A model generated the notes under the pieces. That model was not told where the DNA came from and made no database searches. It saw only the letters and a program-made list of their open reading frames with translations. Below, piece after piece: positions 17,290 to 20,227 of a stretch of DNA of 20,227 bases. Positions within the stretch are counted from its first letter, which is position 1; each line of letters starts with the position of its first letter. The stretch lies in the NCBI GenBank assembly GCA_002385265.1, contig DGDD01000124.1, forward strand, positions 1 to 20,227, read 5' to 3'. The stretch comes from Chitinophagaceae bacterium UBA3961 (GTDB lineage: Bacteria > Bacteroidota > Bacteroidia > Chitinophagales > Chitinophagaceae). The position numbers were made by a program, and so were the translations under genes.

Positions 17290-17308
17290 CATCAGTTCTT
17301 TCAATACT

Positions 17309-17423
17309 ACTTATCAAGAAAGGCGGAGGGTATGGCCCGACGATGCCTTGACAACCTGTTTGTTATGAGTTACTTATAACAGGCAAGGTGCCAATTCCAT
17401 CCCGTATTACGGGGCAGATAAGT
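17309..17423 (+). promoter_or_regulatory. SAM-I (S-box) riboswitch aptamer
   Basis: The closing helix ACTTATC (17309-17315) pairs with GATAAGT (17417-17423). Inside are the conserved S-box blocks AAGAAAGGCGGAGGG, TGGCCCGACGATGCC, TTGACAACC and AAGGTGCCAATTCC. A variable hairpin TGTTATGAGTTACTTATAACA and a CCCGTATTACGGGG hairpin are also present. It binds S-adenosylmethionine and lowers expression of the methionine genes metY and metX when SAM is plentiful. Confidence 0.95.
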
Positions 17424-17466
17424 CAGATCCTACGCTCGATATTTCAACTCTACTTTTATAATATTT

Positions 17467-17502
17467 AGCGCTTCTGACGAACTGTTGGAAGCGCTTTTTT
17501 TT
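17467..17502 (+). terminator. riboswitch-controlled intrinsic terminator
   Basis: AGCGCTTC (17467-17474) pairs with GAAGCGCT (17488-17495) and runs into eight T. It lies 43 nt after the aptamer and is the natural expression platform of the SAM-I element. About 230 nt and a second promoter follow before the leader ORF. Confidence 0.9.
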
Positions 17503-17692
17503 GCTTTCAACGTTCCTTTTGCCAGCTTCTTGGTGTAGTGTATTACGAACCTGTTTATCAATTTATTCACCCGCTTTGCGGAAAAAAAATGTTTAACATG
17601 TTTCAAAACACAGAAAAGCCCATCTCACCAACGGTGTATGAAGGATGGCAGAGGGATTTACTACCTCTTAACTTAAATTTTAGAAATTCAAT

Positions 17693-17724
17693 TTGGTGGT
17701 TCGTAAAAAAGTCTATTACCTTTA
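17693..17724 (+). promoter_or_regulatory. predicted second promoter, downstream of the SAM terminator
   Basis: TTG at 17693-17695, 21 nt, then TACCTTTA (17717-17724) is a 7-of-8 match to TAnnTTTG. Transcription would begin near 17730, only about 5 nt before the leader ORF start. Such a start would bypass the SAM riboswitch. This is inferred from motif position. Confidence 0.4.
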
Positions 17725-17738
17725 TAGAGAATTTATGC
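17710..17738 (+). promoter_or_regulatory. sulfur-regulon operator-like site at the metY second promoter
   Basis: The site reads AGTCTATTACC, TTTA, TAGAGAATTTATG. It fits the motif (AGTCTAYTA, then TAG) and, like the hemA and cysH sites, covers the -7 element and the start point. Confidence 0.4.
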
Positions 17739-17812
17739 CACAAAACAACAACCATAGTTTCTTCTTCGCTGCAGTTCCTTGCTGCATCAGTTGTTGTTGT
17801 TGTATGCCCTAG
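17735..17812 (+). CDS. cysteine-rich leader peptide (putative attenuator uORF)
   Basis: This is a 25-codon ORF, ATG 17735 to TAG 17812. The peptide starts MPQNNNHSFFF and ends AVPCCISCCCCMP, with six Cys codons (residues 16, 17, 20-23), four of them consecutive TGT. It lies 97 bp upstream of metY on the same strand, behind a predicted promoter that would make it nearly leaderless. The RNA can fold two ways. TATGCC at the ORF start and GTATGCC at its end both complement GGCATAC (17813-17819), and the Asn codons (ACAACAAC, 17745-17752) complement the TGT run. Ribosome stalling at Cys codons when charged tRNA-Cys is scarce would change the fold. Poly-Cys leaders upstream of cysteine genes are known in mycobacteria; here the function is inferred. 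The peptide itself probably has no activity. Confidence 0.65.
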   Translation: MPQNNNHSFFFAAVPCCISCCCCMP

Positions 17813-17819
17813 GGCATAC
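17802..17819 (+). promoter_or_regulatory. perfect 18-bp palindrome at the leader ORF stop
   Basis: GTATGCCCTAGGGCATAC is its own reverse complement. As RNA it gives a 7-bp stem with a CUAG loop. It overlaps the last TGT codon, the stop codon and the 7 nt after it. No T-tract follows, so if it controls transcription it would do so through Rho or pausing; control of translation is the other option. Confidence 0.6.
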
Positions 17820-17888
17820 CTATTTCCATATAAACCTATTGGGTATTCTCCTGTTCGTATTCCATTGGAATCAAAGCCTTCATTTTAA

Positions 17889-19229
<1,341 letters not shown>

Positions 19230-19292: not shown

Positions 19293-20227
19293 ATGTCAAC
19301 AACGATTTTTCATTACAACCAACCCTTCAAGTTGGAAAGCGGTACAACGCTCCCGGCTATTCATTTAGCTTACACTACCTTGGGAGAGCTGAACGCACAA
19401 AAATCCAATGTGGTTTGGATTTTTCATGCACTCACAGCCAACAGCAACCCGGCTGAATGGTGGCCCGGACTCGTAGGTGAAGGAAAGTTTTTCGATCCTT
19501 CCAAACACTTTATTATTTGTGTGAACAAACCGGGTAGTCCGTATGGAAGTATTTCTCCTTTAAGCACCAATCCTGAAACCGGTAAACCTTATTACGACAG
19601 TTTTCCGGTATTCACTATTCGCGATATCGTTCAATCTTACCAATTGTTGAAAGAACATTTAGGTATTACAAAAGTGTGGATGGGGTTAGGGGGAAGCACC
19701 GGTGGCATGCAGTTATTGGAATTTGCTATTGCCGAGCCTGAACTGTTCGAGCATATTGTTCCCATCGCAACCAGTGCGGTTTTATCACCATGGGGCGTTG
19801 CATTCAATGCCTCTCAACGGATGGCCATTGAAGCTGATCCTACTTGGAAGGAGCATAGTGCCAATGCAGGCGAGCGAGGTTTGGCTGCAGCTAGAAGCAT
19901 TGCCCTTCTTTCTTATCGTCATTACAACGGATACGGCATTACACAGCCTCGTGATAAAGCCTTTCTTCCCATTACTGATGATGTAACCTATGCAGCAGAT
20001 AATTATCAACGTTACCAAGGATTGAAATTGGTGAATCGTTTTCATGTGTTGTGTTATTATCGTTTAACGCAGGCCATGGACAGTCACGATATTGCTCGCA
20101 ATCGTGGAACTGCAGTTGAAGTGTTGAAGGGAATCAAGTCAAAAACATTGGTGATTGGCATTGATAGTGATGTGTTGTATCCTCTCGAAGAGCAACAGTG
20201 GTTACAAGAGCATATCGATGGCGCGGA
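19293..20227 (+). CDS. metX: homoserine O-acetyltransferase, 3' end cut by the window
   Basis: MetX transfers acetyl from acetyl-CoA to homoserine, making the substrate of MetY. It is an alpha/beta hydrolase. 311 codons are visible from ATG 19293, in frame to the window edge with no stop. Motifs: HALTANSNPAEWW (oxyanion region), NKPGSPYGSISPLSTNPETGKPY, the nucleophile S135 in GLGGSTGGMQ, and IGIDSDVLYP, which carries the catalytic Asp. The catalytic His near the C-terminus is beyond the window. The usual length is about 340-380 aa. The elbow reads GGSTGG rather than the more usual GxSMGG. It forms an operon with metY. Confidence 0.93.
   Translation, partial: MSTTIFHYNQPFKLESGTTLPAIHLAYTTLGELNAQKSNVVWIFHALTANSNPAEWWPGLVGEGKFFDPSKHFIICVNKPGSPYGSISPLSTNPETGKPYYDSFPVFTIRDIVQSYQLLKEHLGITKVWMGLGGSTGGMQLLEFAIAEPELFEHIVPIATSAVLSPWGVAFNASQRMAIEADPTWKEHSANAGERGLAAARSIALLSYRHYNGYGITQPRDKAFLPITDDVTYAADNYQRYQGLKLVNRFHVLCYYRLTQAMDSHDIARNRGTAVEVLKGIKSKTLVIGIDSDVLYPLEEQQWLQEHIDGA

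Follow-up and report, generated by a model that had tools for sequence, protein, structure and literature searches.

Cysteine codons and a stop-codon hairpin upstream of metYX

The window (the whole stretch of DNA analyzed here, 20,227 nucleotides long) carries metY and metX, preceded by a short open reading frame (ORF) that ends in a cluster of cysteine codons. This arrangement raised the question of whether the ORF senses cysteine for metYX, and how a ribosome translating it could act on the genes behind it. The genes cysH, cysD and cysN, together with further sulfur and siroheme genes, were oriented divergently to metYX. Features of the leader and of the genes it precedes:

17735 to 17812, + strand: poly-Cys leader ORF, MPQNNNHSFFFAAVPCCISCCCCMP followed by a stop (read from the sequence; conserved in relatives)
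17780 to 17803, + strand: sensor codons Cys-Cys-Ile-Ser-Cys-Cys-Cys-Cys (sequence, and in-frame TGY counts in relatives)
17802 to 17819, + strand: hairpin P3, GTATGCC-CTAG-GGCATAC, 18 nt, spanning the last Cys codon, Met, Pro and the stop (folding z in 26 family leaders)
17910 to 19229, + strand: metY, O-acetylhomoserine aminocarboxypropyltransferase / cysteine synthase (TIGR01326, 686.5 bits, cut-off 495)
19293 to 20227, + strand: metX, homoserine O-acetyltransferase, cut by the window end (best match TIGR01392; its 304 bits, below the full-length cut-off of 500, come from this cut copy)

The first-pass annotation had described 25 codons, six of them Cys and four of these consecutive, ending 97 nt before metY, and reading of 17735-17812 confirmed this. 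The codons are ATG CCA CAA AAC AAC AAC CAT AGT TTC TTC TTC GCT GCA GTT CCT TGC TGC ATC AGT TGT TGT TGT TGT ATG CCC TAG, with TGC TGC at 17780-17785, four TGT at 17792-17803, and 97 nt between the stop and the metY ATG at 17910. The proposed pairing of GTATGCC (17802-17808) with GGCATAC (17813-17819) also held, as a perfect inverted repeat in the window and as a hairpin conserved in family leaders. Its 4-nt loop (17809-17812) is made of a C and the TAG stop of the leader. A second copy of TATGCC lies at the leader start codon (17734-17739), and ACAACAAC sits within the 5' portion of the ORF.

The ORF is probably the sensor of a ribosome-mediated, cysteine-responsive attenuator that would control transcription of metYX from a separate promoter. 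The cysteine-sensor role itself is strongly supported by sequence comparison among relatives.

Conservation of the leader among metY loci

Genomes of the window's family (117) were searched with MetY, yielding 52 matches at E <= 1e-150; 50 were taken, two were left out, and one of those taken (L100) had no upstream DNA, which gave 49 metY loci. Leaders were defined as ATG ORFs of 10 to 60 codons with at least three Cys in the last 14 residues, located at most 300 nt upstream of metY. Such ORFs occurred in 26 of the 49 loci (5 of 49 on the reverse strand). Dinucleotide shuffles (60 rounds), which take no account of relatedness among loci, averaged 0.9 and reached at most 4. When at least four Cys were required, the counts were 22 of 49 loci, 1 on the reverse strand and 0.07 in shuffles. 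As judged from these counts, the Cys leader before metY is not a product of chance, and 23 of the 49 loci lacked one at the level of at least three Cys. Cys codons, frame and stop-codon hairpin were kept in about half of the family loci; conservation of the Cys codons and their frame was what the earlier reading had hinged on.

Family leaders include MTTVLHTNFPHNYAGICCICCMP, MQQHNRNIISFFSQLACCRCICCMP and MNSSNRLHTKTYSPGNFCCYRCCMP. The leader of a same-genus relative (L063), MAHILPSPTFVLPRKFDGSCCCMPQGIR, differed from that of the window at the N-terminus and kept Cys-Cys-Cys-Met-Pro as well as P3. A functional Cys-rich micropeptide, such as a metal or persulfide binder, would find its conserved part in the Cys cluster, usually followed by Met-Pro, but is hardly probable at all: by eye, no other residue was common to the family leaders, the number and spacing of Cys varied, the Met-Pro codons belong to P3, and the position before metY was fixed.

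Beyond the family, the Cys-hairpin core pattern TGYTGYATGCCGYAAGGCAT was scanned in one genome each of 84,980 species. The 55 matches comprised 53 in Bacteroidota or groups within them, one in an uncultured bacterium and one in a betaproteobacterium, the last of which was rejected as not being a leader. Four other contigs were cut; among the 50 readable matches that were not betaproteobacterial, metY, judged from its first 60 residues, was the next gene in 50 of 50, 46-113 nt after the leader stop. Carriers included Terrimonas ferruginea, T. ginsenosidimutans, Lacibacter luteus, L. cauensis, Flavisolibacter ginsengisoli and Parafilimonas terrae. Across 31 non-redundant loci, TGY occurred 88 times in the leader frame within the eight codons preceding the pattern, versus 4 and 18 times in the other frames. 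These in-frame Cys codons were TGT (61) and TGC (27), which indicates that the amino acid was kept rather than one codon.

Searches with other patterns covered fewer genomes. The exact-hairpin pattern, scanned in 395 genomes of the phylum, matched the window and one other site, so that the exact form looks nearly confined to the window's group, in agreement with the named matches of the species scan. Broad Cys patterns were rejected as returning mostly repeats and coding noise; among 22 places from one of them, leaders recognized by eye were those of the window and of L042 and L043 (two genomes of one other family).

Folding energies set P3 apart from its surroundings. Around the last Cys codon of the 26 family leaders, chosen only for Cys, the mean folding z was -2.56, with z < -1 in 21 of 26, versus -0.79 and +0.10 in control windows shifted 45 nt up and down. 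The hairpin was kept with other arms in L055 (TTGTATG/CATACAA), L070 (GTATGT/ACATAC), L079 (GCGCT/AGCGC) and L094 (ATGTGC/GCACAT), and its loop was GTAA or GCAA in 15 of the 26 leaders, like stable RNA tetraloops. The 18-bp palindrome at 17802-17819, perfect in the window and present in many near-identical copies, might be read as a DNA operator for a transcription factor, the Cys-rich frame being incidental. This is highly improbable, as in-frame Cys enrichment reaches upstream of the palindrome (the 88 versus 4 and 18 given above), the arms differ together in these four loci, and the loops are of the tetraloop type in more than half of the leaders.

The copy of TATGCC at the start codon had been put forward as a competing partner of the 3' arm of P3. 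This pairing needs a Met-Pro start, which among the 26 family leaders only that of the window has when leaders are read from the first ATG that follows the promoter motif; the proposal did not extend to the relatives. The longest ORF of L053 also starts with Met-Pro, but from an ATG located upstream of that motif.

At one family locus (L068), P3 and the promoter were kept with few Cys in the ATG frame. From its sequence, this leader reads as decayed or frameshifted.

SAM-I riboswitch and second promoter

Features between the SAM-I aptamer and the leader:

17308 to 17424, + strand: SAM-I riboswitch aptamer (RF00162), upstream of the leader on the same strand (cmscan 76.5 bits, gathering score 44.4)
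17467 to 17502, + strand: terminator-like hairpin AGCGCTTC / GAAGCGCT (17467-17474 / 17488-17495), followed by eight T (read from the sequence)
17692 to 17696, + strand: putative -33 element TTTGG of a second promoter (sequence; TTTGG present here in many relatives by eye)
17713 to 17724, + strand: putative -7 element CTATTACCTTTA of the second promoter (position-specific matrix from family loci)

RF00162 was the sole Rfam match in the window. No other family reached its gathering score, including Bacteroid-trp (RF01692), presumably a Trp leader, and the leader itself matched none. The hairpin with eight T at 17467-17502 reads, by its sequence and placement, as the intrinsic terminator of SAM-I itself, and L063 displayed the same arrangement of SAM-I and terminator-like hairpin.

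SAM-I aptamers were found upstream in 25 of the 49 family loci. Both modules were present in 15 loci, the Cys leader alone in 11, SAM-I without leader in 10 and neither in 13, a split showing that SAM-I and the Cys leader are separable. The first-pass annotation had the locus sensing cysteine rather than SAM. The idea of a cysteine sensor is supported by the conserved Cys codons and frame, but the exclusion of SAM did not stand, given the aptamer at 17308-17424 upstream on the same strand.

Built on 27 family loci anchored by hand, the matrix for the -7 element (consensus CTATTAAATTTGTAGGGTAA) scored at least 13 in 38 of 49 pattern loci, where shuffles expect 0.0, and in 27 of 31 non-duplicate loci. 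TTTGG and the -7 motif presumably match the known -33/-7 promoter consensus of Bacteroidota. With a promoter-like motif between the SAM-I terminator and the leader, the leader appears to open a transcript of its own that has a short 5' UTR. In a leaderless-start test confined to sequence, the ATG followed the putative -7 element by about 10 nt in the window and by up to about 25-35 nt in relatives.

The -7 region was palindromic in several relatives (CTACTAAATTTGTAG, TCTACTAAATTAGTAGA), with sites at 17713-17728 in the window and upstream of metY in L082, L095, L099 and L101. A motif like it was also seen directly before metY in leader-less loci. The palindromic motif is possibly an operator for a transcription factor acting on the second promoter.

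In the interval from the SAM terminator to the second promoter, the window (17603-17690) and L063 have an ORF stretch in common (EGWQ..LPLNLNF / QGWQNTFPPVNLNF). The block TTAACTTAAATTTTAG in the same interval was also common to these two genomes of the genus.

RNA pairing and termination behind the leader

Pairing tests were run on 57 leaders, 26 from loci not selected for the hairpin and 31 selected by the hairpin pattern, after removal of 13 near-duplicates from 70. Also dropped beforehand were L122, L106, L108, L119, L137 and L142 (chance match or cut contigs) and, for weak promoter scores, L109, L123, L129, L134 and L148. Two features of the window concern the segment behind P3:

17727 to 17732, + strand: GAGAAT, 5' strand of the putative long-range helix P1, partner at 17845-17850 (own versus swapped partners)
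17820 to 17874, + strand: C-rich, G-poor segment after P3 (C 22%, G 13%), holding the 3' strand of P1 at 17845-17850 (composition)

P1, which joins the RNA 5' end to the segment behind P3, paired better with its own than with swapped partners across the 57 leaders (z -3.08, p 0.001), and three controls were null. P2, in which the N-terminal codons pair with the Cys codons, gave z -3.4 versus swapped partners, but the reversed-sequence control gave an equal z of -3.4; P2 was rejected, and the earlier proposal that ACAACAAC pairs with the TGT run is not separable from composition. An alternative pairing of the P3 3' arm was predicted in the window (17812-17822 with 17840-17850). Across relatives, this classical type of alternative pairing, between the 3' arm of P3 and RNA downstream of it, received no support (z +1.5).

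Terminator-like hairpins after the leader (score <= -4) were found in 19 of 57 loci versus 5.3 expected (t -4.5), and termination looks intrinsic, on this sequence criterion, in about a third of the relatives. The other 38 leaders, that of the window included, lacked such a hairpin at the -4 level. Under a looser rule the mean agreed with the excess, but only 31 of 57 leaders beat their own shuffles. A strict scan found terminators in 4 of the first 26 loci, clear only in L071 and L074, and no convincing terminator was present behind the leader of the window (score -1.1 versus -2.0 in shuffles).

The 38 leaders without such a hairpin are what translational attenuation would predict, in which stalling on the leader alters access to the metY start codon and not transcription; actinobacterial poly-Cys leaders are likewise reported without obvious terminators in passages of PMC1262725. 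This alternative is nevertheless unlikely. Sequestration of the metY start was not borne out, modelled stalling leaving its unpaired probability alike in 26 loci (0.563 free versus 0.552 stalled), and related poly-Cys leaders use intrinsic terminators.

Rho-dependent attenuation of the tnaC type is a special case of transcription attenuation and overlaps with the preferred explanation. In it, release of the ribosome at the stop codon would expose a C-rich Rho-loading site that a stalled ribosome would block. The Cys codons adjoin the leader stop codon, and composition agrees with this route: in 26 loci the segment after P3 averaged 28% C and 12.6% G (C/G 2.24), with C exceeding G in 26 of 26, compared to a C/G of 1.34 at -90 to -35 in 17 leader-less metY loci. 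These 26 loci were picked by eye and differ in part from the 26 of the Cys-ORF and P3 tests, including L068, L076 and L096 and omitting the leader-bearing L077, L089 and L093 (promoter unanchored). The excess of terminator-like hairpins (19 of 57) speaks against the tnaC-type route, and a model with Rho only leaves no evident job for P3; it was considered possible, though somewhat doubtful. For transcription attenuation as a whole, the preferred reading has P3 as a hairpin that, by its geometry, would be sensitive to ribosome position, and a termination step that may differ between species or be partly Rho-based.

Proposed control of metYX

Under transcription attenuation, the predicted promoter just upstream of the leader ATG would give an RNA whose first translated unit is the leader. 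When Cys-tRNA is scarce, the ribosome would stall on the six Cys codons and cover the 5' arm of P3, so that P3 could not form and RNA polymerase would continue into metY. When cysteine is plentiful, the ribosome would reach the stop codon in the P3 loop and leave. P3 would then form, the RNA 5' end could pair behind it through P1, and transcription would end before metY, which in the window would require a weak or Rho-type site. RNA reading through the SAM-I terminator must pass the leader, which would place SAM and cysteine checkpoints in series on that RNA, and RNA from the second promoter would meet the cysteine checkpoint alone.

MetY forms homocysteine from sulfide in a direct reaction that does not consume cysteine. 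If the proposed control is true, SAM and cysteine would both control metY, which stands where direct sulfhydrylation and the use of cysteine diverge. Cysteine-sensing leader peptides would be extended to Bacteroidota, with a simple genomic signature findable in dozens of species.

Poly-Cys leaders elsewhere in Bacteroidota

The suggestion that the logic of the mycobacterial leaders also operates in Bacteroidota gained ground, as poly-Cys leaders with terminators occurred in another family and in another class. In the phylum sample (metY match in 189 of 247 genomes), 28 metY loci outside the family were looked at, and a poly-Cys leader was found in 11 of them (one locus cut).

A locus of another class (L184) carried a poly-Cys leader with a strong terminator, followed by SAM-I with a second terminator and then metY, the reverse of the module order in the window. 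Within the window's order, one genus from a different family had a poly-Cys leader before a cysteine synthase-like gene, with DNA matches in 5 of 18 genomes. The assignment as cysteine synthase-like comes from one scanned protein (best model cysM, 275 bits, below its cut-off) and, for the others, from an N-terminal motif recognized by eye. Four distinct versions of this leader were found (MKSNMFHSLCCICCCCCGVTGHGYRWT, MNLSRLNSQLVMCCCCSATQYGYWWT, MKFNCLHTLMCCCCCCKAQLTGYWWA and MINRYTYLRHCCCCCCAEPPGYGWR), each with a stable hairpin and then 9 or 10 T behind it.

In these loci (L188-L192), the last leader codons formed a hairpin in 4 of 5 predicted folds, with a loop (GGTGGA or similar) complementary to the terminator 5' arm. 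Such a loop would be what an antiterminator needs, in a pairing that was read by eye and that the folding program displayed in one of the five. The stop codon lies in the 3' arm of the L188-L192 hairpin. One genome of the same genus (L051) also contained a different short ORF with the ending CCCICCCCC.

Relation to known leader-peptide systems

In classical trp-type attenuators, the sensor codons of the leader ORF overlap the first hairpin, as they do in the window. The difference lies in the terminator/antiterminator pair: clear terminators were confined to certain relatives, to the leaders before cysteine synthase-like genes and to a single metY locus from another class, and none was convincing behind the leader of the window. 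Mycobacterial poly-Cys leaders were reportedly named cysteine-responsive attenuators by Canestrari et al. (2020, Mol Microbiol), and the leaderless poly-Cys short ORF of mycobacteria has its run of Cys codons near the stop, as has the window leader.

Poly-Cys leader ORFs are described for actinobacterial cys and cbs genes in passages of PMC1262725 and, by that description, resemble the leader of the window in their run of Cys codons by the stop, their position before a sulfur operon and the lack of an obvious terminator. The window differs from them in its phylum, its metY/metX genes, the conserved stop-codon hairpin, the predicted short 5' UTR and the nearby SAM-I aptamer. Sections of PMC8632094 present uORFC-8-2, located before cysS in Rhodobacterales, as a ribosome-mediated attenuation sequence, with Cys codons in a leader ORF and structure around these codons as in the window. 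According to the same sections, uORFC-8-2 belongs to alpha-proteobacteria, has two tandem Cys codons usually at positions 14-15 and a terminal U run in all cases; it precedes cysS, whereas the window leader precedes metY.

Tandem SAM-I / T-box(Met) elements before metX and metY, mentioned in parts of PMC9481103, similarly combine two sulfur amino-acid signals before the same genes. The second sensor here would be a leader peptide reading cysteine and not a T-box reading tRNA-Met. The terms 'leader peptide' and 'uORF' were absent from the text of this tandem riboswitch review.

For Bacteroidota, excerpts mention leader-peptide attenuation of amino-acid operons in Flavobacterium psychrophilum (PMC9723704) and short ORFs in Bacteroides thetaiotaomicron (PMC7366714), and list Bacteroid-trp (PMC2864571). 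No publication on a Cys leader in the phylum was found in a search that reached few subscription journals. The earlier statement that no Bacteroidota example is described can be kept for Cys leaders within that search; leader-peptide attenuation as such is reported in the phylum, in the excerpts of PMC2864571 and PMC9723704.

Fusion of SAM-I and poly-Cys leaders in other families

In three other families of the class (f23, f28 and f29), the leader ATG came directly after the SAM-I aptamer. Family f23 (33 metY loci examined, from 73 genomes with a match) had SAM-I in 30 loci, an ATG ORF 6-11 nt after the aptamer in 30 of 30, and at least three Cys in the last 14 residues in 27 of these 30 ORFs. 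Family f28 (32 loci, from 78 genomes with a match) had SAM-I in 32 of 32 and an ATG ORF at 4-15 nt in 25, with at least three Cys in 16 of 32 within that spacing and in 21 of 32 when spacings up to 45 nt were allowed. The fusion was present in both loci of f29. The ORF kept its position without Cys in L163, L165, L166 and L294 (f28) and in L262 (f23), which counts against a strict rule. Genomes of these families yielded 20 more SAM-I sites; the seven of them that were scanned had no fused leader. A motif search read 13 of a set of 30 SAM loci.

Terminator scores of -6 or lower followed 22 of 50 SAM-fused leaders versus 22% of shuffles (paired t -2.9), with no terminator common to the 50. The closing helix of the aptamer ends at the place needed for ribosome binding, and SAM would therefore be expected to gate leader translation. 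The chances are about even that metY control in Bacteroidota is a composite two-input RNA gate, in which the SAM-I switching helix abuts the start codon of the poly-Cys leader, SAM deciding whether the leader is translated and Cys-tRNA whether the ribosome stalls. As part of this composite reading, the window would be a split form of the SAM/cysteine sensor, with SAM-I and its terminator followed by a separate promoter and the Cys leader. Together with the reverse order in the locus of another class, the split form suggests that the pairing of SAM and cysteine sensing arose or was rearranged more than once.

A fusion of SAM-I and leader peptide was found in no publication within the reach of the same search (few subscription journals). 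By comparison of sequences, the window leader is real and conserved, and the composite of the other families is the more novel, new as a combination. If true, the fusion of SAM-I aptamer and leader peptide would amount to a naturally occurring RNA device with two inputs, testable in vitro.

In L161, SAM-I and the poly-Cys leader preceded another gene (OsmC-like by eye) and then metY, so that the operon differs within one family. In L176, the leader after SAM-I had many Met residues besides its Cys (MCSPSMRMRMPMSCFSYMCA), a composition compatible with a possible methionine-sensing variant.
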